Below, in pieces: positions 23,376 to 47,893 of a DNA stretch of 64,000 nucleotides (position 1 is its first letter; the number at the start of each line of letters is the position of its first letter). Both the position numbers and the translations under genes were made by a program. Below the pieces are notes generated by a model. That model did no database searches, was not told where the DNA came from, and worked only from the letters and a program-made list of their open reading frames with translations. This DNA comes from Tissierellia bacterium. GTDB lineage: Bacteria > Bacillota > Clostridia > Peptostreptococcales > Acidaminobacteraceae. The stretch covers positions 1 through 64,000 of the forward strand of contig DUPT01000013.1 of assembly GCA_012838225.1 (NCBI GenBank), written 5' to 3'.

Positions 23376-23406
23376 TATGACCCACACCTTAGACAAAGGA
23401 GGATCC

Positions 23407-24111
23407 GTGCAAGCACTCGTTCAAGCGATCAAACAAGCCAACTCCCTGATAGCCTTCACCGGGGCCGGGATGGATACCGAAAGCCGGCTGCCTGATTTTC
23501 GGGGGCCGGAGGGTCTGTGGAGAAATCACGATCCCAGGACGCTGGCCAGTACCCAAGCCTTGGCCGGCAATTATCCACTGTTTCAGCAGTTCTATGCCGA
23601 TCGGATAAAGGCGCTCCATGAGGCCGAGCCTCATGTCGGTCATACGATCCTGGCGGACTGGGAGAAGTCCGGTCGCCTTCAAGCCATCATCACCCAAAAT
23701 GTCTCGGGCCTCCACGCCGCCGCCGGCTCAAAAAATGTCATAGAGCTCCACGGCAGTATCCGGCGGATCCATTGTTCGCTCTGCGGCAAAGCAGCCGGGG
23801 AGGAGGCGTTTTTAGCCAAGCAGGCCTGCTCGTGTGGCGGCCGGCTTCGCCCCGGGGTGACACTGTTTGGTGAGAGCCTGCCCCAAGCGGCCTTTCAGCG
23901 GGCTGATGAAGCCCTATCCCGAGCCGATCTGATCCTGATCCTGGGGACATCGCTCGAGGTCTTTCCGGCCGCCCAGCTGCCCTTTATCTATCCGATGCTA
24001 CGGGCCTATGTCGATCTGGCGGCAAAACCTGACCCTCGGATCGATCACAGCTATGCTCAACCGATCGGACCGTTTCTAGACCGGCTCGACCGCGCCTTGA
24101 CGGCGGATTAG
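23407..24111 (+). CDS. Atypical sirtuin (Sir2-family NAD-dependent deacylase)
   Basis: The GTG at 23407 is used because AAAGGAGG precedes it; the ATG at 23377 lies in the ackA terminator. The 234-residue protein has the Sir2 fold: FTGAGMDTESRLPDFRG, the catalytic His115 in ELHGS, and zinc cysteines 123, 126, 141 and 143. Two positions depart from the family. The conserved Asp of TQN-I/V-D is Ser100 (TQNVS), and the Ser after GAG-x is Asp23. The C-terminal NAD-contact region is also shortened. The Asp to Ser change affects the nicotinamide pocket, so kinetics or chemistry may differ. The place after ackA suggests reversal of acetyl-phosphate-driven lysine acetylation. Confidence 0.85.
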   Translation: MQALVQAIKQANSLIAFTGAGMDTESRLPDFRGPEGLWRNHDPRTLASTQALAGNYPLFQQFYADRIKALHEAEPHVGHTILADWEKSGRLQAIITQNVSGLHAAAGSKNVIELHGSIRRIHCSLCGKAAGEEAFLAKQACSCGGRLRPGVTLFGESLPQAAFQRADEALSRADLILILGTSLEVFPAAQLPFIYPMLRAYVDLAAKPDPRIDHSYAQPIGPFLDRLDRALTAD

Positions 24112-28000: not shown

Positions 28001-29011
28001 ATGAAACTAGGAATCGATGCCATGGGAGGCGATCACGCGCCTTCGGAAATCGTTCAGGGTGCGATCGAAGCCGCCCGATTGATCGATGCTCAACTGGTCC
28101 TTTATGGCCAAGCCGAGCAGATCCTGCCGCTGATAGGCGATCGACCGATCCTGGTCGTTGATTGTCGGGAAGTCATCCAAAATGATGAGATGCCGGTGCC
28201 GGTGATCCGTTCCAAGACGGATTCGTCCATGGTGCGCGGGCTGATGGATCTAAAGGAGGGCAAGATCGATGGCTTTTTATCAGCCGGTTCGACCGGTGCC
28301 CTGCTGGCCGGCGGACTGCTCCGGGTCGGTCGGATCAAGGGGATCGAACGGCCGGCACTGACAACGGTCTATCCGATGAATGATCGGATGGGACTGTTGG
28401 TCGATGCCGGGGCCAATGCCGACTGTAAGCCGGCCCACCTGAGAGACTTTGCCCTGATGAGCAGTATCTATGTCGAAAAGGTCTATGGAATCGACAATCC
28501 CAAGGTCGGACTGGTCAATATCGGTGAAGAGCCGGGCAAGGGCAATGAATTGGTCAAAAACACCTTTCCGCTGATGGAAAAAGCCCCGATCAACTTTGTC
28601 GGCTCGATCGAAGGCCGTGATATCCCGTCGGGGAAGGTCGATATCGTCGTCACCGACGGCTTTACCGGCAATGTCATCCTGAAATTATCCGAGGGTCTGG
28701 CCAAGACCATGGGCCAGTGGGTCAAGGAGATGTTTCTTAAAAATGCCATCACCAAGCTGAGCAGCCTGTTCTTTAAGCAAGGCTTTCGTGAGTTCAAGGC
28801 TCGCTTGGACTATACCGAATACGGCGGAGCTGCTCTCCTGGGCGTCAATGGTGCCTTAGTTAAGGCCCACGGCTCAAGCAATGCCAAGGCGATCAAAAAC
28901 GCCGTCCTGTATATGGAAAAATATGCCGCCAGCGGTGTGATCGCTGAGATCAAGCAAGCCCTCGATAGCCTGTTAGCGGAGGAAGCCGATGAGCGAGCAA
29001 ATCCTGAATAG
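28001..29011 (+). CDS. plsX: Phosphate acyltransferase PlsX
   Basis: Makes acyl phosphate from acyl-ACP for the PlsX/PlsY route of phospholipid synthesis. The family signature is complete: KLGIDAMGGDHAPSEIVQGA, SAGSTGALLAGGLLRVGRI, GANADCKPAHLRDFALM, NIGEEPGKGNEL and VVTDGFTGNVILK. The 336 residues are normal. AAGGAG precedes the ATG. It overlaps the acyl carrier protein gene by 23 bases. FapR, often just upstream of plsX in Bacillota, is absent here. Confidence 0.96.
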   Translation: MKLGIDAMGGDHAPSEIVQGAIEAARLIDAQLVLYGQAEQILPLIGDRPILVVDCREVIQNDEMPVPVIRSKTDSSMVRGLMDLKEGKIDGFLSAGSTGALLAGGLLRVGRIKGIERPALTTVYPMNDRMGLLVDAGANADCKPAHLRDFALMSSIYVEKVYGIDNPKVGLVNIGEEPGKGNELVKNTFPLMEKAPINFVGSIEGRDIPSGKVDIVVTDGFTGNVILKLSEGLAKTMGQWVKEMFLKNAITKLSSLFFKQGFREFKARLDYTEYGGAALLGVNGALVKAHGSSNAKAIKNAVLYMEKYAASGVIAEIKQALDSLLAEEADERANPE

Positions 29012-29213
29012 TCTGCGGACGTATTTTGGCCTGCGAGAAGACGAGCTGACAGCCGAAACGTCCTTTCGCCGTGATCTTGCCTGGGATGATATCGATCTGT
29101 TCGAAGTCTTTTTTGGCATCGAGCAGCAATACGATGTCGAGATCCCGGATGAGGCCGCCGACCAAATCGATACGATCAACCAATTAGTCGATTGGCTCCA
29201 AGCCAGCCGGTAG
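28989..29213 (+). CDS. Acyl carrier protein-like protein lacking the attachment serine
   Basis: 74 residues with the full acyl carrier protein fold: four helices and the family end EIPDEAADQIDTINQLVDWL. It starts inside plsX behind GGAGG. The position that should read Asp-Ser-Leu, where holo-ACP synthase adds phosphopantetheine, reads Asp33-Asp34-Ile35 (DLAWDDIDLFEV). The codon for residue 34 is GAT (29088-29090). A Ser codon would need at least two base changes, so a single sequencing error does not explain it. As read, this protein cannot carry an acyl chain by the normal chemistry. It may be a regulatory or structural ACP mimic, perhaps binding PlsX. A normal acpP must then lie elsewhere. 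Confidence 0.88.
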   Translation: MSEQILNSLRTYFGLREDELTAETSFRRDLAWDDIDLFEVFFGIEQQYDVEIPDEAADQIDTINQLVDWLQASR

Positions 29214-29237
29214 CTGTCTATGACAGCTATTTTTTTG
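29211..29237 (+). terminator. Terminator of plsX-acp
   Basis: Perfect 8-bp arms TAGCTGTC and GACAGCTA with a short loop, followed by eight T residues. Confidence 0.92.
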
Positions 29238-29331
29238 TGAAAGTTAAACCCTAAGATGACAATATATAAATATATGAAGAAACTCATGGTTTTATGAATC
29301 CAAGGAGTATAATAGAGCTCGTGAGGTGATT

Positions 29332-29667
29332 ATGGAAAAAACTCAATTGATTCAACTGATGGATACGGCGATCTCACTCGATCAGGAACTTCAGGACTGG
29401 ATGGCCGATAAAGAGGCGGAGCTGGCCAAAGCCGGCCGGTCGCTGGAGGAGGCCTTGCCGAAGGAGTATGCTCAGCGCCGGGCTGATTTCGAGAAGTCAT
29501 ATCAGGCCTTGGCGAGCCGCGCCAGACAGGATATTGACCGTGAGCTGGAGCGGATCGAGGCTGAAAAGAACGAACAGCTCAGGGCCAACGAGCAGGCCTT
29601 TGAAGCCCATAAGGAGCAGATGATCACGGCCGTGCTCGATCGGATCCGAGGTGATGAGCTTGGGTAG
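29332..29667 (+). CDS. V/A-type ATPase peripheral stalk subunit (G/H-like)
   Basis: 111 residues, nearly all one charged coiled coil rich in Glu, Lys, Arg and Ala (EALPKEYAQRRADFEKSYQ, then ELERIEAEKNEQLRANEQ). As the first gene of the V-ATPase operon it matches the peripheral stalk subunit that pairs with subunit E. The ATG at 29332 follows GAGGTG; the GTG at 29326 is inside that site. A TATAAT box at 29308-29313 probably drives the operon, with a weak -35. Sequence alone cannot separate this from other short coiled coils; the operon position decides it. Confidence 0.75.
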   Translation: MEKTQLIQLMDTAISLDQELQDWMADKEAELAKAGRSLEEALPKEYAQRRADFEKSYQALASRARQDIDRELERIEAEKNEQLRANEQAFEAHKEQMITAVLDRIRGDELG

Positions 29668-30661
29668 AGTCCAGCGCCATGCGGCTGTCGTCTCGAAGGT
29701 CCAGGCTCTGCGAGGCAAGCTCCTCAAGCCGGTTGATTATGCCAAGGCTTTGCAGACCGATGATCTGATCGGTCTTCTTCGGCAGTGGTATCCTGATCTG
29801 CCGGCATCCGGCGGTATCTACGAATTGGAGATGGCCTTCATGCGAAAATTCCAAGAGGAGATCGAGCCGATCTATCTCTACTATACCTTTGCCTATCGTG
29901 AGGTGCTAAAGCGTATCTTTATGCGCTTTGAGATCGAGCGGGTCAAACGGGCTCTGCGCTACCTGACGACCCATGATGAATCGCCTCATCCGCCGATCCT
30001 TTTAAGCCATATCCTCGAGCATGTCGACGAGGAGCTGTTTCAAAAGGCCGAGACGTATCAGCAGCTGGCCGATGCGATGAAGTATCCGCCCTATCGCAAG
30101 ATCGTCCTCAGCATGAAGGCGATGGATGAGGACCGATTGTTCCACGCCGAGATGTCACTCGATAAGGAGTATTTTCGGGGCTTGGTCGATATCCGGGATA
30201 AGCTCGATCCGATCGATCGTGAGATCCTGTTAGAAGCCGTCGGGGTCCATGTCGATATGCTCAATCTCAACTGGATCCACCGGGCGAAGGCGACCTTTGC
30301 GATCACGCCCGAAGAAATCTTTAACTATACCTTGTCTCGCGGCAAGCGGATCGGGATCAAGCAGCAGCGAGCCCTGAGCTATCTGAGCCTAAAGGAGCTC
30401 GATGATTGGATCGCTCACTCAGCCTACCACACAGTCTTTGATGGCAATCCGCTCGGGCAGGAAGCCCGGATCGAGGGCTATCTCTATCGGACGCTTCGGG
30501 CCTTGGAAAAGGCTCATCCGATGAGTCTGGCTCCGCTGATCAGCTATCTGCATGAGGTGGAATACCAGATGCGTGATCTTGATATGATCGTCGAGGCCAG
30601 GGACTATCAGGTCGATATATACCATGAATTGTTAGGAAAGCAGGTGGGTGCATGGCGATAG
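29654..30661 (+). CDS. ntpC: V/A-type ATPase subunit C
   Basis: The funnel-shaped subunit that joins the central stalk to the membrane rotor. It is mostly helical, with repeated YxxL-type helices and the ending EVEYQMRDLDMIVEARDYQVD. The start is uncertain: GTG 29651, ATG 29654 and TTG 29660 are in frame, and the GAGGTG at 29648-29653 best suits the TTG. The choice changes only two or three residues. It overlaps the genes on both sides. Confidence 0.88.
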   Translation: MSLGRVQRHAAVVSKVQALRGKLLKPVDYAKALQTDDLIGLLRQWYPDLPASGGIYELEMAFMRKFQEEIEPIYLYYTFAYREVLKRIFMRFEIERVKRALRYLTTHDESPHPPILLSHILEHVDEELFQKAETYQQLADAMKYPPYRKIVLSMKAMDEDRLFHAEMSLDKEYFRGLVDIRDKLDPIDREILLEAVGVHVDMLNLNWIHRAKATFAITPEEIFNYTLSRGKRIGIKQQRALSYLSLKELDDWIAHSAYHTVFDGNPLGQEARIEGYLYRTLRALEKAHPMSLAPLISYLHEVEYQMRDLDMIVEARDYQVDIYHELLGKQVGAWR

Positions 30662-32586
30662 AAAAAATGAAGATGCTTAACATCGTCTTGCCAAAACAAG
30701 ATGTCTATCCGGTGTTACGCCAGGTCAGTCTCAAAGAACGCGTCGAGATGATCGATGCCCAGCGGGCGATCGATGAGACGTCCTTTCTTTTGACGGCCAC
30801 GGTCGAAAATGCCGAGGTGATCCAAGAATTGGCCGAGGTCGGGGCCTATACCATGCCGACCGATGCCGATCGGCTATCAGATCAGCTGGCCGCCATCCTG
30901 GTCGGCACCAACTGGAAGCCGACGCTTGATGTGACGAGTCTGGATAAGACCTATGACTACACGGAGCTTGAGCAGCAGCTGACCAGCTATAATCTGCGTC
31001 TGGCGGCCATCGAGCAGGAACGACAGGCCCTCAGGCCTTATGCCATCTTGGCGGAGCTGGGGATGGACATGCCGCTCGATCGGATGGCGCAGATGGAGTA
31101 TCTGACGTATCGGGTGGGACTGATCCACCCGGCATCCTATCAGAGGCTGCGGCTCAATGCCGAGAATATCTCGGCCATGTTTTTGAGGCTGGGGACGTAT
31201 CGTCGCCAAGAGGTCTGTCTGTTCGTCTATCCGAAGATCCTCGAGACGGAGACCGAGCGGATCCTGCTGAGCGTCCAGTTCGATGAGATCGTATTCGATC
31301 CGATGTTCTATGCCATCGATGCCGGCACGACCCCGACCAGGTTGAGAGCACTGAGGGCAGAGGCGGAGGAGATCAGTCGCCGCAAGGAGAGTCTGCTCGA
31401 TCTGCATAAAGAGGCCATCGATGGCCTGTTCACCAAAGCCAAGCTCGATAAGCAGTTGGAGGAGGTGGCCGCGATGATCGGTCAGTCGGAAAACTTCGCC
31501 TACTTATCGATGTGGGTGCCGGCGGATCGGGTCGAGCCGATCACTCAGATGATCCGGTCGATGTCCGAGGCCATCATCGGTGCCTATGGCAGCGCCGAGG
31601 CCCGAAGCATCGAGCATGCGCCGACTTCACTGAAGAACAATCGCCTGTTTCGGCCGTTTGAGAGCTTGGTGCTGATGTATGATGTGCCCAACTATCACGA
31701 GCTCGATCCGACGCCGTTTTTTGCCATCGCCTATACGGTCTTGTTTGGCGCGATGTTTGGCGACCTCGGTCAGGGGCTGATCATTCTGCTGGCTGGTCTT
31801 CTCATGGTCCATAAGTGGCAGATGGCCTTTGGCGGATTGCTGGTGAGACTGGGGGCGGCCTCGATGATCTTCGGCTTCTTCTATGACTCGCTGTTTGGCT
31901 TTGAACACGTCATCAGCGCCATCGTCGGCTGGCCGATCTTCTTCTATCCGTTTGAAAACACCAACCTGGTCTTGATCGCGGCCATCATGGTCGGGTTGTT
32001 TCTGCTGATCGTCGGTTATGGCTATGGCATCATCAATAAGTATAAGCTGGGTGATATCGACGGGATGCTGTTGGGCAAGACCGGTCTGGCCGGCCTGATC
32101 TTGTTTTTATCCCTGCTGCTTAGCCTCCTGCCGATGGTGGTCGATGTCTCGGTCCCGAGTTTTATCACCTGGCCGGTCGTGATCATCTCGGCTCTTTTGA
32201 TCGTACTCAAAGAACCGATCGGCAATGCCCTTCGAAAAGAGGATCGCCTGTTCGATCAGGGCTTGGGCGAGTTTTTGACCGAGCAATTGTTTGAGCTGAT
32301 CGAAACCTTTCTAAGCATGTTCTCGAATGGGCTGTCGTTTATTCGAGTCGGGGCATTCACTCTGAGTCATGTCGGTCTGTTCGTGGCTTTTCATACCCTG
32401 GCCGATATGATCGGCGGAGCCCAAGGGGCTGTCTCAATGGCAATCGTCGGCAATCTCCTGATCATCGTGCTCGAGGGGCTGGTCGTGTTCATCCAGGGTC
32501 TTCGACTGATGTATTATGAGCTGTTCAGTAAGTATTTCGTCGGCCAGGGGCGCCGATTCAAAGCCCTGAAATTGGAGGAAAAATGA
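30652..32586 (+). CDS. ntpI: V/A-type ATPase subunit I (a-subunit)
   Basis: 644 residues. The first half (to about residue 340) is soluble and coiled-coil rich and forms the arm that meets the peripheral stalks. The second half has about seven or eight membrane helices and makes the ion path beside the rotor. Family blocks include the membrane entry FFAIAYTVLFGAMFGDLGQGL, the later FLTEQLFELIETFLSMFSNGLSFIRVGAFTLSHVGL with the essential arginine (FIRVGAF), and the C-terminal GLRLMYYELFSKYF. It overlaps ntpC by 10 bases and ntpK by 4. Confidence 0.95.
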   Translation: MAIEKMKMLNIVLPKQDVYPVLRQVSLKERVEMIDAQRAIDETSFLLTATVENAEVIQELAEVGAYTMPTDADRLSDQLAAILVGTNWKPTLDVTSLDKTYDYTELEQQLTSYNLRLAAIEQERQALRPYAILAELGMDMPLDRMAQMEYLTYRVGLIHPASYQRLRLNAENISAMFLRLGTYRRQEVCLFVYPKILETETERILLSVQFDEIVFDPMFYAIDAGTTPTRLRALRAEAEEISRRKESLLDLHKEAIDGLFTKAKLDKQLEEVAAMIGQSENFAYLSMWVPADRVEPITQMIRSMSEAIIGAYGSAEARSIEHAPTSLKNNRLFRPFESLVLMYDVPNYHELDPTPFFAIAYTVLFGAMFGDLGQGLIILLAGLLMVHKWQMAFGGLLVRLGAASMIFGFFYDSLFGFEHVISAIVGWPIFFYPFENTNLVLIAAIMVGLFLLIVGYGYGIINKYKLGDIDGMLLGKTGLAGLILFLSLLLSLLPMVVDVSVPSFITWPVVIISALLIVLKEPIGNALRKEDRLFDQGLGEFLTEQLFELIETFLSMFSNGLSFIRVGAFTLSHVGLFVAFHTLADMIGGAQGAVSMAIVGNLLIIVLEGLVVFIQGLRLMYYELFSKYFVGQGRRFKALKLEEK

Positions 32587-33002
32587 GTATTGTAATTCTG
32601 GCTAGCCTAGCGGTGCTGGCCACCATCACCACCGGCATCTATCTTCTAAGACGTGACACCTATCCTCGGCCATGGATGAAGCACGCCCTGCGGATCAATC
32701 TCGCCCTGGGGGCGCTCCTGCTGTTGGCTTTTTCGGTCCAGCTGGTATCGGGTGTCAGCTTCGCTCAAGCCGAAACGACGCCGGCGGCGGTCAACGGCCT
32801 CGGTCTGATCGCGGCGGCACTGTCGACCGGTATGGCGACCATCGGGGCCGGGCTGGCCGTATCAGCGGTCGGCTCGAGTGCCATCGGGGCCATCAGTGAG
32901 GACCCCTCAAACCTCGGTCGGACCTTGATCTTTGTCGGACTCTCGGAAGGGATCTCGATCTTTGGGCTGATCATCTCGATCCTGATCCTGGGAAAAATCT
33001 AG
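32583..33002 (+). CDS. ntpK: V/A-type ATPase rotor subunit K (proteolipid)
   Basis: 139 residues. An N-terminal helix and a signal-like segment ending SFAQA precede the c-type hairpin GLGLIAAALSTGMATIGAGLAVSAVG. The second hairpin helix holds the ion-binding glutamate in LSEGISIFGLIISILIL. The hairpin has no Gln beside the usual site, which leans towards H+ rather than Na+ transport; this is inference only. The long N-terminus is seen in clostridial relatives from memory. It overlaps ntpI by 4 bases. Many copies per complex are expected, and a strong GGAGG site precedes it. Confidence 0.92.
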   Translation: MSIVILASLAVLATITTGIYLLRRDTYPRPWMKHALRINLALGALLLLAFSVQLVSGVSFAQAETTPAAVNGLGLIAAALSTGMATIGAGLAVSAVGSSAIGAISEDPSNLGRTLIFVGLSEGISIFGLIISILILGKI

Positions 33003-33296
33003 ATGAAACCCTATCTGATCGCCGCTCGGCGCGAGGTCGTTTCGAGCTTTCGGCTGATGGGCATTCGGGGCGAGTGGCTGCCCGAGGGCGGCTATGAGCG
33101 CTTTTTGGAACTCTATCAGACGGGCGAGTATGGGCTGTTCTTTTTAGGGGAGGCCATCATCAAGGGCCATGAAGCCGATATCAGCCGAAAAAAAGTCCGT
33201 GGCCAAAAAATGATCCTGGTGATCCCTGAACAAGGCGGCGATCTCTTATCGTCCGTTCGGGGACAGATCGAGCAGGGTCTGGGAATGAAGGTATAA
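33003..33296 (+). CDS. ntpG: V/A-type ATPase subunit F
   Basis: 97 residues. The central-stalk regulatory subunit with the small Rossmann-like fold: FRLMGIRGEWLPEGGYERFLELYQ, then YGLFFLGEAI, then MILVIPEQGGD. The start codon directly follows the ntpK stop codon. In E. hirae nomenclature this is NtpG. The match in size and order (K, F, E, A, B, D) supports the call more than any single motif. Confidence 0.85.
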   Translation: MKPYLIAARREVVSSFRLMGIRGEWLPEGGYERFLELYQTGEYGLFFLGEAIIKGHEADISRKKVRGQKMILVIPEQGGDLLSSVRGQIEQGLGMKV

Positions 33297-33845
33297 ATGC
33301 TTCAGGTAGAAGATAAGATTCCGTTTTTTCGACGGATCATGGAAAATGAATTGAAGTTTCAGCTCGATTGGCTGACCCGGGCTCAAACAGCCGAGCTGGC
33401 CGAGAGGCAAGAGCAGTTGGAGAAACAGTTGGTCGATGAAACCACCGCCCGGAGTGAGCGCCAAAAGGAGTTGATCACTCAGGATCGAAGGAATCGGCTG
33501 TCTCAGGCCGAAGCCCTTCGCAAGCACGCCCTATTGGCTCAGCGTGAGGCTTTAATGGCGGAGCTTCGGCGGGAGCTGAGTGTCCATCTAAGAGACTGGC
33601 TAAGAAGTGATGACTTCCTGGATAAGCTCCGGTCGATCCGCTTCCAACGCGTCGATGGCCCGGATGAGATGAAGCCGCGCTTCCTCGAGCGGTTTTCAGT
33701 GAGCTATCGATCAAAGGCCATCGATGGCTTCGTTCTCTACGATGATGAGGAGGCGACCCGCCTCGATTTGACGCTGCCGCGCTGGTTGGAGCGCTATGAA
33801 CGCTCTTTGGCCGAGGTGTTTCAAGAAAGGGTCGGTGGGCTATGA
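33297..33845 (+). CDS. ntpE: V/A-type ATPase subunit E
   Basis: 182 residues. An N-terminal coiled coil (AELAERQEQLEKQLVDETTARSERQKEL) leads to a mixed C-terminal domain that grips the A3B3 head. It pairs with the G/H-like subunit as the peripheral stalk. Its start directly follows the ntpG stop codon, and it overlaps ntpA by 4 bases (ATGA). Sequence drift in this family is high, so position in the operon is important evidence. Confidence 0.85.
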   Translation: MLQVEDKIPFFRRIMENELKFQLDWLTRAQTAELAERQEQLEKQLVDETTARSERQKELITQDRRNRLSQAEALRKHALLAQREALMAELRRELSVHLRDWLRSDDFLDKLRSIRFQRVDGPDEMKPRFLERFSVSYRSKAIDGFVLYDDEEATRLDLTLPRWLERYERSLAEVFQERVGGL

Positions 33846-35614
33846 TCGGCCGGATCAGTTCGATCAATGGACCGGTCGTCGGTTGTGTCGACACCACCGG
33901 CTTTCGGCTGCGAGAGATGGTCCTGGTCGGTCATAAGCGGCTGATCGGTGAGATCATTGAAATCAAGTCTCAGGGAGCGACGCTTCAGGTCTATGAAGAG
34001 ACGGAAGGACTGCAATTGGATGAGCCGGTCTATCCGACCGGTAAGCCGCTGCATGTCCGCTTGGCCCCGGGGATCCTGGGTCATATCTATGACGGCATCC
34101 AGCGGCCGCTCGATGTCATCAAGCAACAGGCCGGTGATTTCTTAAGTGAGGGGATCGGTCTGATGTCGATCGATGAAACGACGGTGTGGTCGCCTGATTT
34201 TATCGTTCAAGAAGGAGATCAGGTCTCGCCCGGTCAGATCTATGCCACCCTCCAGGAGACCCGACTGATCGAGCACCGTCTGATGATCCCGCCCGGGGTC
34301 AGCGGTCGCATCAAAGCGATCCATCGCGCCCCGGCGACGATCACCGAGGAGATCATGGTCATAGAAACCGAATCGGGCGATCGGTCGATCACGATGGAGC
34401 TCATCTGGCCGGTCCGTCAGCCCAGACCGCTGAAGGAACGTCTGGCCATCTCCCAGCCGCTCCAGACCGGTCAGCGGGTGATCGATATGTTCTTTCCGAT
34501 CGGTAAGGGCGGGACGGCCGCCATCCCGGGTGGCTTTGGGACCGGCAAGACGATCACTCAGCACCAGATTGCTAAGTGGAGCGATGCCGACATCATCGTC
34601 TATATCGGCTGCGGTGAACGCGGCAATGAAATGACCGATGTCCTGGAGCAGTTTCGGGAGCTGGAGGACCCTCAAAGTGCCCACAAGCTGATCGAGCGGA
34701 CGATTTTGATCGCCAATACCTCGAATATGCCGGTGGCCGCCCGTGAGGCCAGTATCTATACCGGCATCACCTTGGCCGAGTACTACCGCGATATGGGCTA
34801 TCATGTGGCCATCATGGCCGATTCTACCAGCCGCTGGGCCGAAGCCCTCCGAGAGATCTCGGGCCGACTCGAGGAGATCCCGGCCGAGGAGGGCTATCCG
34901 GCCTACCTGGTATCTCGCCTGGCCGAGTTCTATGAGCGAGCCGGCTATGGCTTGACCTATTCCGGGAAAGAAGCCTCGGTCACGATCATCGGGGCCGTCT
35001 CGCCCGCCGGCGGTGATTTTTCCGAGCCGGTGACCGAGAACACCCGGCGCTATATCAATGCCTTTTTAGCGCTCGATCGCAAGCTGGCGTATTCGCGTCA
35101 CTATCCGGCGATCGATTGGATGACGAGCTACTCCGGCTATGCCGGCCTGCTTGAGCGGTGGTATGAAGAGCGGCTGGGAGAAAACATCGCACCGCTTAGA
35201 CAGCGGATGCTGGCGCTCCTGCACGAGGAGAGCAGTCTGCGTGAGATCGTTCAGCTGGTAGGAGAAGATGTCCTGCCGGATTCACAGCGGCTGACACTGG
35301 CAGTCGCCCGATTGCTTCGCATCGGCTATCTGCAGCAAAACGCCTTTCACCCGGTGGATGTCTATGTACCGCTGGAGAAGCAACTCTTGATGCTTCAGCG
35401 GATCGATCAGTTCCACCGCCGGGCCCAAGCGGCGCTGGCTGCCGGGGTGCCGGTCGATCAGGCGACAGATCCCAAGCTGATGGAGGAGCTGACCAAGATG
35501 AAATACGATATCCCCAACGACAACCTGAGGGCATTCACAGACCTCGCCCAGCGGATCGATCAGACCTTTGATCAACTGGAGCGCTCTTATCGGAGGCTGC
35601 ATGAAAGAGTATAG
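33842..35614 (+). CDS. ntpA: V/A-type ATPase catalytic subunit A
   Basis: 590 residues. The catalytic nucleotide site is complete: Walker A GGFGTGKT in [19 protein letters not shown], the following [16 protein letters not shown] with the catalytic glutamate, and [35 protein letters not shown]. The bulge domain typical of V/A-type A subunits lies between about residues 110 and 200. It hydrolyses or makes ATP in the cytoplasmic head. It overlaps ntpB by 14 bases. Confidence 0.97.
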
Positions 35615-36965
35615 AGGTATCCAATCGGCTCGGGGTCCGCTGGTCTTTTTGGAGCCAAAAACAGGCGTCCAAAACGGCGAGATCGTCGAGCTAAGAGATG
35701 AGACCGGACTTCGACGGGCCCGGGTGATCAGGCTGGAGCCGGACCATCTGGTGGCCCAGGTATTTGAAGGCACCTCCGGGATCGAGCGAGATGATGTCTA
35801 TGTCCGCTATACCGGCGATCATTTCAAGCTCGAGCTGAGTCCGGACATCCTGGGCCGGACCTTTAGCGGTGTCGGTCAGCCGATCGATATGGACGGCAGC
35901 TTCTTTGGCGAGGTCCGACGAGACATCAACGGCCGTCCGATCAATCCGATGAGCCGAGAATATCCCCGAAACTATATCCATACCGGGATCTCGGCCATCG
36001 ATAGCCTGATGACGCTGATCCGGGGGCAGAAGCTGCCAATCTTTTCGGGAGCGGGGCTGCCTCACCGGGAGATCGCGGCGCAGATCGTGGCCCAGGCCCG
36101 GCTAAAAGATCAGACCGAAAGCTTTGCCGTGGTGTTTGGGGCGATCGGGATCACCCAAGACGACGCCTTCTTCTTTATGAATTATTTTAATGAAAACCAG
36201 GTGTCGGATCATTTGGTCAGCTATTTCAACTATGCCCAGGATCCGGTCAGTGAGCGGGTCATGACCCCGCGGTGTGCGTTGTGTGCCGCCGAGTATCTGG
36301 CGTTTGATCTGGGGATGAATGTCCTGGTGGTCCTGCTCGATATCACCAGCTATTGTGAAGGCCTGCGTGAGATCTCGTCTTCCCGCGAGGAAGTCCCCAG
36401 CCGCAAGGGCTTTCCCGGCTATCTGTACTCCGATCTGGCATCGCTGTATGAGCGGGCCGGCATCTTGGCCGATCGACCGGGCTCGATCACGCTGCTGCCT
36501 ATCCTGACGATGCCGGGCGATGATATCACTCATCCGATCCCGGATTTGACCGGCTATATCACCGAGGGTCAGATCGTGCTGTCTCGCTCGCTCCACCGAG
36601 CCGGCATCTATCCGCCGATCGATGTCCTGCCGTCGCTCTCGCGGCTGATGAAGGATGGGATCGGGGAGGGTTATACCCGGGAGGATCATGCCGATCTGTC
36701 CAATCAGCTCTTTAGCGCCTATGCCAAGGTCGGGGATGCCAGAAACCTGGCACAGGTCATCGGGCGAGATGATCTCTCGCCGATCGATCAGACCTATCTT
36801 GATTTCGGGGACGCCTTTGAGCAGCGGTTTTTATCACAGTCGGCCACCGAGAGCCGCTCCCTGGACAAGAGCTTTGCCATCGGTTGGGAGATCCTCAAGA
36901 TCTTGCCGCTATCAGAAATGGATCGTCTCTCGCCCGAGCGGATCCGGCGATTCCTAGAGCGCTGA
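35601..36965 (+). CDS. ntpB: V/A-type ATPase subunit B
   Basis: 454 residues from the ATG at 35601, which follows CGGAGG; the frame is open 11 codons further up inside ntpA. It is the non-catalytic partner of subunit A, with the degenerate P-loop [15 protein letters not shown] and the family blocks [47 protein letters not shown] and [11 protein letters not shown]. It is intact to its end. Confidence 0.97.
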
Positions 36966-36966
36966 T

Positions 36967-37578
36967 ATGACCGATTTCACCCCGACCAAAACCAATCTCG
37001 ACCGAGCCAAGCATTTTTTGGTCTTTGCTCACAGCTCACACGCCCTGCTTGATCGCAAACGAAAGGTCCTGATCCAGGAGATGATGGAGCGGGTATCACG
37101 GGCTCAGGACATGGCCCGGGAGCTCCAAGCCCGACTCGATGAGGTCTATCAGCTGATCATCCATGCCAATATCGTCTATGGCTCGCTGGCGGTCGAGGAG
37201 CTGGCCCGAACGGTCGATCCGCTCGAGACGATCGAACAGCTGAGCAGCTCCGTGATGGGCGTAAGCCTGCCTCGGCTGCTGGTCGAGGACTATCAGCTCG
37301 AAGCCAGCTACGGGATGTATCGCGGCGGTGTCAGTCTCGATCATGCCATGGAGAAGATGGTCGGCCTAAGACGCCTATTGTTTCAGTTTGCGGAGATGGA
37401 GACGGCCATCTCTCGGCTGGCCTATGAGATCGACCGGACCGCCAAGCGGGTCAATTCGATCGAAAAGATCCAGATCCCACGCTATGAAGCGCTGGTCAAG
37501 ACGATCGAGGAGGCGCTCGAGGAAAAGGACCGGGAGGATCTGTTCCGGTTGAAGATCGTCAAAAAGAAGTTAAAATAA
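36967..37578 (+). CDS. ntpD: V/A-type ATPase subunit D
   Basis: 203 residues, the central rotor shaft. It begins FTPTKTNLDRAKHFLVFAHSSHALLDRKR, the family opening, and ends NSIEKIQIPRYEALVKTIEEALEEKDREDLFRLKIVKKKL, both long helices that form the antiparallel shaft. It starts one base after the ntpB stop. It is the last gene of the nine-gene V-ATPase operon; a hairpin follows. Confidence 0.95.
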   Translation: MTDFTPTKTNLDRAKHFLVFAHSSHALLDRKRKVLIQEMMERVSRAQDMARELQARLDEVYQLIIHANIVYGSLAVEELARTVDPLETIEQLSSSVMGVSLPRLLVEDYQLEASYGMYRGGVSLDHAMEKMVGLRRLLFQFAEMETAISRLAYEIDRTAKRVNSIEKIQIPRYEALVKTIEEALEEKDREDLFRLKIVKKKLK

Positions 37579-39717: not shown

Positions 39718-40872
39718 TTATTTATTGGATGGTTGAGGTTTGGTCAGTAGCAGGGTCTCTTTTAGCCGTTCTTCGATCTGGGTCAGCTCCTGCTGGGCGG
39801 CTTGACGTTTTTCGCGGCCTTCGGTGTGGATGCGAAGCGTTTCTTCGATCGTTTCAATCAGGTCCTGATTGACCTTCTTGAGGGTCTCGACATCGACGAT
39901 GCTGCGCTCGGATTCACGGGCGACCTCGATCGAGGAGGTCTTGAGCTGCTCGGCATTCTTTAGGAGCAGTTCGTTGGTGGTGTCGGTGACCTGCTTTTGC
40001 ATCTTCAAGACATTTTCCTGCTTGTGCAGGCCGAGGGCGATCACGATCTGGCTCTTCCACAGCGGGATGGTGTTTAGCATGGCGGTCTGGATCTTATCGA
40101 CCAGTTGCTTGTCATTGTTTTGGATCAGCTTGATCTGCGGGGCCGTTTGGATGGCCAGCGTTTTTGAGATCTCAAGATCATGCACCTTTTTTTCAAAGCG
40201 GTTGACCGTGTCTTCAAAGTCAGCCACCAATTGGGCGCTCATCGGTTCGCCGCTGCTGGCGGCTTCCTGACGCAGGCGCGGGATGGTCTCTTCACGCATT
40301 TCTGCCAGCTTCTCCTGGCCGGCGATGATATAGAGTTGGAGCTGATTGAAATAGTCAAGGTTGTTGGCGTAGAGCGAATCGAGATTGGAGATATCGGTCA
40401 ACATCTGCAATCGGGCGACATCGAGCTCGGCTTCGATCTTATCGATCTGTTGATCGAGGTCTTCGTAGCGGGCCAAGAAGGTGCCCATCTTATCATTGGC
40501 TTTTCGGAGAAACGGGATATTGTCGAGCCAGGATGATTTCTCGCCGGCTTGCTCAAGCTCGAGCGAGCGGACCTTGACCATGAGATCGGTCATGATATCG
40601 CCGACATAGCCGGCATCCTTTGATTTGACTTGGCTCAGGATCGTCTCGGAGAATTGTGACAGGTTCTTTTGGGCATCGACACCGTATTCGGTGGCCAGCT
40701 TATTGTCCATCAGATCGATCTGATCCTTGATCCGGTCGATCTCTTGGCGCTGCTCGGGGGTGATCTCGGCCAGCTGGTGTTCGATCTTGGCGATTTCGTG
40801 CTCGGCATCCTCGATCGGCTCTTCGAAGGCCGGTTTGTTTTTCTGTAGTGTCTCGAGTGTGATTTCTGACAT
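39718..40872 (-). CDS. TelA-like toxic anion resistance protein
   Basis: 384 residues, almost wholly helical with long coiled coils, of the TelA/KlaA (YaaN) family first linked to tellurite resistance. Family blocks are the central VKVRSLELEQ, then FLARYEDLDQQIDKIEAELD, then PLWKSQIVIALGLHKQ and the following LLKNAEQLKTSSIEVARESERSIVDVETL. No membrane helix or signal is present. Its usual partner XpaC/YaaK is not adjacent. In other genomes TelA also appears with TerD-type and phage-defence or envelope-stress genes, so the true role here is open. Confidence 0.88.
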   Translation of the reverse strand: MSEITLETLQKNKPAFEEPIEDAEHEIAKIEHQLAEITPEQRQEIDRIKDQIDLMDNKLATEYGVDAQKNLSQFSETILSQVKSKDAGYVGDIMTDLMVKVRSLELEQAGEKSSWLDNIPFLRKANDKMGTFLARYEDLDQQIDKIEAELDVARLQMLTDISNLDSLYANNLDYFNQLQLYIIAGQEKLAEMREETIPRLRQEAASSGEPMSAQLVADFEDTVNRFEKKVHDLEISKTLAIQTAPQIKLIQNNDKQLVDKIQTAMLNTIPLWKSQIVIALGLHKQENVLKMQKQVTDTTNELLLKNAEQLKTSSIEVARESERSIVDVETLKKVNQDLIETIEETLRIHTEGREKRQAAQQELTQIEERLKETLLLTKPQPSNK

Positions 40873-40993
40873 GGTTTCCTCCCATTCATTGTTGGTTCAT
40901 CTCTACCAATACCCAAAAAAGCCAGGGCTAGATGCTTCAAACAGAAAAAACAGTGAGGCATTGCTGTGTTACAATATAGGCCAGGGAGGCCGC

Positions 40994-41617
40994 ATGAGAA
41001 CCAAGCATGATCTTGCCCAACCGGCACTGGTAAAAGAAGCCTTGACAACCAAGGGGTATGCCTATGAACAACAGCTCGATTATGACAATCAGCGGCTGGA
41101 GTTTTTGGGGGATGCCGTGATGGAGCTGATCGTATCGGACCATCTGTTTTCTCAAACAGAGCTGAGCGAAGGCCAACTGACGAGGCTTCGGTCCTCGGCG
41201 GTCGATGAAGCCAGTTTCTCGAAGCTGGCTCTGCGCTTTAAGCTCGATCAGGACCTGAGGCTGGCCACCGGTCAGCGCTTGACCCCATCGCTCCTAGCCG
41301 ATGCCTTTGAGGCCTTTATCGGGGCCTACTACCTGGCCAACGGCTTCGAGGCGACAAAGGCCTTTGTCGTTGAATCGATCATGCCCCTGATCGACTTGAG
41401 CGGGGAGCGCGATCCCAAGAGCCGGCTCCAGGAGATGCTTCAGGCTAAAGGGATCACCGATATTAAATATCACACCCTGGCTCAGACGGGGCCGGATCAT
41501 GATTGCCGGTTTGAGGTGGCACTCCATATCGCAGGCACCGAGGTATCCCGCGGCCGCGGACGCTCCAAAAAGGAGGCACAAAAGGCGGCGGCAGCCGACT
41601 ATTTGAATGTATTATGA
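40994..41617 (+). CDS. rnc: Ribonuclease III
   Basis: Double-strand-specific endonuclease that matures rRNA and cuts structured RNA. 207 residues from the ATG at 40994 behind GGGAGG; the frame is open from 40727 but that part lies over telA. The nuclease signature is NQRLEFLGDAVMELIVSDHLF (usual start NERLEFLGDA), and the second acidic block is LADAFEAFIGAYYL. A double-stranded RNA-binding domain ends the protein (EVSRGRGRSKKEAQKAAAADYL). It overlaps the radical SAM gene by 4 bases and heads the rnc-smc-ftsY series. Confidence 0.95.
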   Translation: MRTKHDLAQPALVKEALTTKGYAYEQQLDYDNQRLEFLGDAVMELIVSDHLFSQTELSEGQLTRLRSSAVDEASFSKLALRFKLDQDLRLATGQRLTPSLLADAFEAFIGAYYLANGFEATKAFVVESIMPLIDLSGERDPKSRLQEMLQAKGITDIKYHTLAQTGPDHDCRFEVALHIAGTEVSRGRGRSKKEAQKAAAADYLNVL

Positions 41618-42630
41618 CCTATGCCAATATCCCGATCTTTGTAGCTCATATGGGCTGTCCCTATCAGTGTGTCTATTGCAATCAGCACACCATCACCGGC
41701 AGCGACGCCGAGCCGAGTGAAGCGATGGTCCGACAAACAATCGAAGACGCCCTGGAGACGATGGGGCAAAAAGATGAGGTGGAGATCGCTTTTTTTGGCG
41801 GCAGCTTCACCTTGCTTCCCAGAGACCTCCAGGCCCGCTATCTGTCGATTGCGACCGAATACGTCCAAGCTAATCAGCTGGCCGGCATCAGGCTATCGAC
41901 TCGCCCCGACGGGATCGACCGGCCCATCATCGACTTTCTAAGTGACTATCCGGTCCGGACGATCGAGCTCGGTGTCCAGTCGATGGATGAACACGTCTTG
42001 AAGGCCTCGGGTCGAGGCCATGATATCATCTCGGTCCTTCGAGCGGTCAATCAGATCAAGCGCTATGGCTTTCGCCTCGGTCTTCAGATGATGCTCGGGC
42101 TGCCCGAGGATTCGTACGATAAATCGATCTATACGGCCGAGAAGCTGGCCACGATGAAGCCGGATTTTGTCCGGGTCTATCCCACCTTGGTCCTGGCCGA
42201 TACGCCGCTTGAGGCGATGCATCGGCGGGGAACGTATCAGGCCTGGGAGCTTGAAGAAGCCATCGAGGCGGCTGCCGGCGTGACCAGCATCTTCATGCGT
42301 CACGCGATCCCGATCGTTCGGATGGGCCTGTATTCCAATGAGGCCGACTTTTCTAAAAAGGTCATCGCCGGACCGTATCATCCGGCCTTTCGGGAGCTGG
42401 TCATGAGCCGAATGATCAGAAAGCGGATCGAGCGCTCGATGGATCTGGGTGAGAAAACGCTGATGATCGCGGTGCCGGCGCAGGACGTCTCGGCGACCAT
42501 CGGACATAAGCGGGAGAATGCCAAATACTTCCACCGGCAATACGGTATCAAAGACTATCAGGTGGTGGCCGATGAGACGCTCGAACGCCACACCTATCGC
42601 TATAAAGACAAGGTATATCGACTGTACTAG
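41614..42630 (+). CDS. Radical SAM protein (Elp3-like)
   Basis: 338 residues. The 4Fe-4S cluster site is Cys-x3-Cys-x2-Cys in MGCPYQCVYCNQH, near residue 15. Next come FFGGSFTLLPRD (SAM-binding GGE-like region), RLSTRPDGID and ELGVQSMDEHVL. This group of Elp3-related proteins without an acetyltransferase domain is regularly found between rnc and smc in Bacillota and is of unknown or tRNA-modifying function. The C-terminal part (KYFHRQYGIKDYQVV) matches its relatives. It overlaps rnc by 4 bases; smc starts 10 bases downstream. Confidence 0.88.
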   Translation: MTYANIPIFVAHMGCPYQCVYCNQHTITGSDAEPSEAMVRQTIEDALETMGQKDEVEIAFFGGSFTLLPRDLQARYLSIATEYVQANQLAGIRLSTRPDGIDRPIIDFLSDYPVRTIELGVQSMDEHVLKASGRGHDIISVLRAVNQIKRYGFRLGLQMMLGLPEDSYDKSIYTAEKLATMKPDFVRVYPTLVLADTPLEAMHRRGTYQAWELEEAIEAAAGVTSIFMRHAIPIVRMGLYSNEADFSKKVIAGPYHPAFRELVMSRMIRKRIERSMDLGEKTLMIAVPAQDVSATIGHKRENAKYFHRQYGIKDYQVVADETLERHTYRYKDKVYRLY

Positions 42631-47161: not shown

Positions 47162-47893
47162 ATGATCCGACAACTCAAACGCTTGATCGATCAGGCCGAG
47201 ACGGTCGTCTTTTTTGGCGGCGCCGGTGTCTCGACCGAGAGCGGTGTGCCGGATTTTCGAAGTTCTCAAGGGCTGTATCGGCAGTATCAGGGAGCTGAGA
47301 AGTTTCTGTCGCCTCGCTTTCTTAAAAAGGATCCGGTCACCTTCTATACTTTCTATCGGAAGCACTTTCTATCAGACAAAGAACTGACACCGAATCAGGC
47401 CCATATCGGTCTGGCTGAGCTCGAGGCGAGGGGGAAGCTGGCGGCCATCATCACTCAAAATGTCGATCGGCTGCACCAAAAGGCCGGCTCCAAGACCGTC
47501 TATGAGCTGCACGGCCGAGCCGATACCTTCACTTGTCGGAGCTGTGGGAAGGTCTATACCAAGGATCAGATCCGGCAGATGGATCATGTGCCGTATTGCA
47601 GCTGTGGTGAGATCCTTCGCTCCGATGTCGTTTTGTTTGATGAGGGACTCGAGCCTAAGACGCATGAGCAGGCGATCAGGGCGATCGAACAAGCGGATCT
47701 GCTGATCATCGGCGGAAGCTCGCTTCGGGTCTATCCGGCGGCCGGGCTGCTTCGCTATCAAAAGCCTGGCGGCAAGAAGGTCCTGATCAATCTCGAACCG
47801 GGCAATACCCCGGTCGAGCTTGAGATCAATCGGCCGATCGGCGAGGTCTTTGGTGAACTGATGCAATTGTATGAAATGGAGGAGAGGGAGTGA
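47162..47893 (+). CDS. cobB: NAD-dependent protein deacylase (sirtuin)
   Basis: 243 residues with all canonical sirtuin motifs: GGAGVSTESGVPDFRS, TQNVD with Asp102, catalytic His117 in ELHG, zinc cysteines 125, 128, 146 and 148, and GGSSLRVYPAAGL. It removes acetyl or other acyl groups from lysines using NAD. GGGAGAAAAG precedes the ATG. This is the second sirtuin of the window and, unlike the one near ackA, keeps the TQNVD aspartate. It overlaps the TIM-barrel gene at its end, so the two are translationally linked. Confidence 0.95.
   Translation: MIRQLKRLIDQAETVVFFGGAGVSTESGVPDFRSSQGLYRQYQGAEKFLSPRFLKKDPVTFYTFYRKHFLSDKELTPNQAHIGLAELEARGKLAAIITQNVDRLHQKAGSKTVYELHGRADTFTCRSCGKVYTKDQIRQMDHVPYCSCGEILRSDVVLFDEGLEPKTHEQAIRAIEQADLLIIGGSSLRVYPAAGLLRYQKPGGKKVLINLEPGNTPVELEINRPIGEVFGELMQLYEMEERE

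Follow-up and report, generated by a model that had tools for sequence, protein, structure and literature searches.

The gene for PlsX in the window (the whole 64-kb stretch of DNA analysed) overlaps a short open reading frame (ORF) whose product was noted in a preliminary description as an AcpP-like acyl carrier protein (ACP) with Asp at the position of the phosphopantetheine-bearing Ser. This locus raises the question of whether such a protein can act as a carrier at all and, if not, what it might do beside plsX. The relevant features are as follows, with the Ser-less product referred to from here on as the Asp34 protein.

28001..29011, + strand: plsX, acyl-ACP:phosphate acyltransferase (PF02504, E = 2.4e-97; TIGR00182, 329 bits against a cut-off of 243)
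28978..28982, + strand: GGAGG, a Shine-Dalgarno-like site within the 3' end of plsX (sequence)
28989..29213, + strand: gene for the Asp34 protein, a Ser-less acyl-carrier-like protein of 74 amino acids (PF00550, E = 1.5e-8; AlphaFold2; Foldseek)
29088..29090, + strand: GAT codon of Asp34, in the phosphopantetheine-Ser column and first residue of helix II (alignment, model and sequence)
29209..29231, + strand: intrinsic terminator-like hairpin (10 pairs, 4 GC) plus T-run, closing the pair formed by plsX and the Asp34 gene
29326..37578, + strand: V-type ATPase gene cluster, between that pair and rnc (ORFs)
40727..41617, + strand: rnc (RNase III; start uncertain; PF00636/PF14622)
41614-42630: radical SAM gene, after rnc and followed by smc and ftsY (ORFs)

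In the ORF list the Asp34 gene starts at an ATG within plsX, giving an overlap of 23 nt, and the GGAGG lies 6 nt 5' of this ATG. By this arrangement the gene is translationally coupled to plsX, and co-production of its product with PlsX is to be expected. Since the terminator-like hairpin lies 3' of the Asp34 gene, the two genes make up a closed pair. PlsX itself is canonical: a comparison with 43 relatives gave 62 columns of ≥90% conservation, and it keeps 61 of them, no alteration of the enzyme being seen alongside the unusual ACP. A plsY gene is also present in the genome. Two Sir2-family genes were found elsewhere in the window, at 23377-24111 and 47162-47893 (PF02146, E = 5e-42 and 3e-48).

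The codon score of the Asp34 frame is 0.64 bits/codon, against 0.17–0.56 for thirteen window genes, and all five other frames score lower. Its codon bias was matched by none of 2000 random synonymous versions; on the strength of these two tests, this is a real coding gene, beyond what chance would produce. The ACP assignment made in the preliminary description was confirmed as well: residues 3–70 match the entire Pfam PP-binding profile PF00550 (positions 1–67 of 67) with 35.2 bits, above the gathering cut-off of 20.8, while the score against the NCBIfam acyl_carrier model TIGR00517, 56.3 bits, is below the equivalog cut-off of 70.45. Single-sequence structure prediction gave a pLDDT of 60, and a model based on an alignment with 58 ACPs from viral contigs was used instead. 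This AlphaFold2 model (mean pLDDT 86.5) has helices at residues 2–13, 34–48, 54–59 and 63–73, and Foldseek aligned it with E. coli ACP at a TM-score of about 0.9 and with solved ACPs at up to 0.91. The predicted structure is thus the standard four-helix ACP fold. Nine of the 12 columns that are ≥90% conserved in a 59-ACP alignment are kept (D29, L30, D33, E39, E45, E51, I52, D54 and A57); in the other three, Leu is replaced by Ile, Val by Phe, and the Ser is lost. The positions of F50 and I54 of E. coli ACP, which are absolutely conserved and required for stability (PMC3340395), are occupied by Tyr48 and Ile52, and the acidic recognition face of helix II is retained.

The alignment with E. coli ACP is ungapped over the whole length, at about 31% identity, and places Asp34 on Ser36, so that the Ser required of a functional AcpP is absent and the site reads WDDID versus the usual GADSL. 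Even the conservative S36T substitution leaves E. coli ACP unmodified and non-functional (PMC3340395). Because the attachment Ser is missing, the Asp34 protein should be unable to carry phosphopantetheine, as the preliminary description had held, and, judged by sequence, it has no carrier role. The evidence comes from one genome, a draft assembly of 77 contigs, which leaves room for a Ser codon misread in sequencing or assembly, or for modification of a different residue. We regard either as very improbable: two changes would be needed to turn the GAT codon into TCT or AGT and three for any remaining Ser codon, which bears out the earlier count of at least two, there is no indel, the flanking residues differ too, and helix II begins without an alternative Ser. 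It had also been suggested that Asp makes the protein a permanently "modified" mimic. This is not favored. In the model, helix II begins exactly at Asp34, and because the site residue opens this helix, a structural reason would suffice for the choice; Asp, Ser and Gly all start helices well, so that Asp or Gly at this site, suited to the first turn of helix II, may be purely structural.

If this were the only ACP of the lineage, as the preliminary description had considered, acyl transfer would call for another explanation. A search of the genome refuted this: three further ACPs score above the cut-off of the Pfam profile, and all have Ser. The first (GIDSLD) lies on a different contig in an operon resembling fabH-acp-fabK-fabD-fabG-fabF-fabZ, the gene names being taken from a reading of the ORFs only. 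The second (KADSIDA) adjoins an ABC-F gene and shares 65–73% identity with ACPs from the two nearest genera; the third (ELSSYD) lies between genes for an AMP-ligase and an Sfp-type transferase. Both AcpS (C47) and this type of transferase (C55) are encoded, and with three Ser-bearing ACPs and AcpS at hand, acyl transfer in this lineage needs no new explanation. The gene for the third ACP is part of a small cluster (L080, G000:C55:26000-39565), which holds the AMP-ligase and Sfp-type transferase genes and also ABC transporter genes; a related ACP was observed in genus g6 (G006, C85).

Loss of the Ser was rare in the ACPs gathered. Among 164 distinct ACPs from this genome and its relatives, a set gathered by similarity to the Asp34 protein and hence not a random sample, 161 have Ser at the site; the exceptions are the Asp34 protein and one protein each in G011 and G012. 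Seven ACPs were found directly 3' of plsX, and the other six all have Ser, in the form of DSL or DSV. Among ACPs from viral contigs, Ser was present in 82 of 84, with Glu in one and Asp in one. Overall, four of the five non-Ser cases gathered have an acidic residue, the residues seen being Asp, Gly and Glu. The two further cases from the family of the window are at G011:C6, about 129239-129493 (L154, L184; NGND), and at G012:C300:1-231 (L150, L185; DDTT), and no plsX adjoins either in the stretches read. On the 133-kb IMG/VR contig 3300035660_000002, a 78-residue AcpP-like protein (L288:2986-3222) has Glu in place of Ser (HADELDLVE), and its gene adjoins one for a cold-shock-like protein. The 48-kb IMG/VR contig 3300037424_001312 encodes an ACP-like domain (L359:2887-3639) whose site residue is Asp instead of Ser (GMDDLAMVE); the open frame runs on into a second, unassigned domain, and the sole relative found is the L288 protein.

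Searches of genomes from the family (41), the order (394), the class (391) and the phylum (398), and of the viral collections, yielded no ortholog of the Asp34 protein; the best matches in those genomes are ordinary ACPs of at most 43% identity. As to whether Asp is conserved in the plsX-adjacent ACPs of relatives, the comparison gives Ser in all six and no ortholog to set beside the Asp34 protein. The only congener, G001, encodes orthologs of both the FAS-operon ACP and the KADSID ACP. Its contig C170 stops 214 bp beyond the gene upstream of plsX, and its assembly has neither plsX nor the V-ATPase gene tested, which means that the plsX segment is either unassembled or absent. In the tree of the 164 ACPs, the terminal branch of the Asp34 protein is the fourth longest (0.91, against a median of 0.06). 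Bit scores are divided between descent from the acpP that relatives have in their plsX operon and descent from a different ACP, and the tree is weakly supported on this point.

The statement that the gene occupies the normal place of acpP stood in part. It does overlap plsX, and plsX-acp adjacency occurs in other Clostridia, in Enterococcus and in one family member (G005). However, in the 29 plsX loci of relatives first read (27 from the family, two from the order), the next gene is rnc, fabH or a transporter gene, with no ACP directly after plsX. The nearest genera (g6 and g16) have plsX followed directly by rnc and then the radical SAM gene, with no ACP between; in other genera fabH follows plsX, and in several of these an acp lies about 2.8 kb downstream. 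A scan of named genomes with PlsX returned distant Bacillota only, in which the gene after plsX is rnc or fabH. In the window, the V-ATPase cluster and other genes separate the plsX pair from rnc, the radical SAM gene, smc and ftsY, whereas relatives with adjacent plsX and rnc have no V-ATPase block between them.

Taken together, we consider it about an even chance that the Asp34 protein is an auxiliary, plsX-coupled ACP which lost its carrier function through the change from Ser to Asp and was kept as a non-carrying partner. The substitution would have removed the phosphopantetheine site, so that the protein carries nothing, and it would be made together with PlsX. The kept acidic face of helix II and the expected co-production suggest that any action of the protein would most likely be that of a permanently empty ACP, which binds to PlsX or to a different partner of ACP and tunes or stabilizes it. 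Carrier work being covered elsewhere, by the FAS-operon ACP, the KADSID ACP and AcpS, supports such a non-carrying partner. A more specific version, in which the protein fills the ACP site of PlsX or another ACP-binding site, controls how acyl-ACP and acyl-phosphate are balanced and so regulates phospholipid synthesis as a dead substrate, is possible but on the unlikely side. Judging from gene order, a partner function of this kind cannot be general, because in the nearest genera plsX is not directly followed by an ACP gene. The occurrence in a single genome, with no ortholog in more than 1,000 others searched, also weighs against the partner reading.

The same gene order, together with the redundant ACPs of the genome, the long terminal branch and the two other Ser-less ACP-like proteins found in the family in other contexts, also favors a decaying relic, that is, an ACP that was no longer needed after synthesis came to be served by the FAS-operon ACP, lost its Ser and is drifting, its frame being open because the loss is recent. 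We hold this account to be a serious competitor, at somewhat below even odds, and the long branch also fits relaxed selection. Against it, the frame is open with a strong codon bias and a Shine-Dalgarno-like site, and nine of the 12 near-invariant positions are kept; a frame of 74 codons would probably not have survived neutral drift along so long a branch, though a recent loss of Ser would still be compatible. The intact frame and kept core over this branch argue for constraint during most of the history of the gene, which does not fix the date at which Ser was lost. A third account would make the Asp34 protein a non-carrying structural subunit outside PlsX. A role of ACP that is independent of the prosthetic group has a precedent in E. 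coli, where, according to the account given in a later article, ACP takes part in MDO glucan synthesis without phosphopantetheine (Therisod and Kennedy 1987, cited in PMC6158461). The coupling to plsX and the terminator right after the Asp34 gene point instead to plsX and not to other neighbors, making this account improbable.

Should the non-carrying partner be functional, the cell would be using an ACP for nothing but its protein surface, co-produced with the enzyme to which ACP hands acyl chains, and the case would show that the acyl-phosphate pathway is regulated by a dead substrate analogue. If the gene is instead a relic, it records a plsX-linked second ACP losing its job after the fab operon kept its own. 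Either way, plsX-adjacent ACPs annotated by domain match alone are not always carriers, and because non-Ser, mostly acidic residues recur in unrelated ACPs, two of them on viral contigs, the general question is open to testing.

Compared with AcpP of the E. coli type, the Asp34 protein is alike in its ungapped alignment, predicted fold and acidic helix II, and differs in lacking the phosphopantetheine Ser and in falling under the TIGR00517 equivalog cut-off. The Ser-less proteins of G011, G012, L288 (ADEL) and L359 (MDDL) share with it an ACP domain and a mostly acidic site residue; unlike the Asp34 gene, none adjoins plsX where the neighbors are readable, and they are independent occurrences rather than orthologs. 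Conversely, the plsX-adjacent ACPs of the Bacillota G587 (L186) and G714 (L214) and of the family member G005 (L081) share its position and differ in having DSL or DSV; within the class, no other relative scores as high as that of G587 (52.9 bits, 40% identity). A natural, plsX-linked ACP with Asp for Ser was not found in the literature searched, a body of work that most subscription papers lie outside.

The closest known arrangement, by position, is plsX-acpB of Enterococcus faecalis, which encodes a second ACP with 30% identity to AcpA of the fab operon (PMC6509188). AcpB is phosphopantetheinylated and takes acyl chains from acyl-phosphate via PlsX (PMC6509188), and it is the source of the acyl-ACP that the repressor FabT has as its ligand (PMC6509188, PMC13046290); it is thus a plsX-coupled second ACP with a regulatory job apart from synthesis (PMC6509188). 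Like acpB, the Asp34 gene lies directly downstream of plsX and is separate from the fab operon, in which an ACP gene follows fabH in both organisms, and its product is similarly distant (29% identity) from its own fab-operon ACP. The E. faecalis fab operon starts with fabT, whereas no MarR/FabT gene was seen beside the fab operon here. AcpB keeps its Ser and accepts acyl chains, which the Asp34 protein, without Ser, cannot do. A plsX-coupled auxiliary ACP is therefore already known in the form of AcpB, and what is new here is such an ACP without the attachment Ser.
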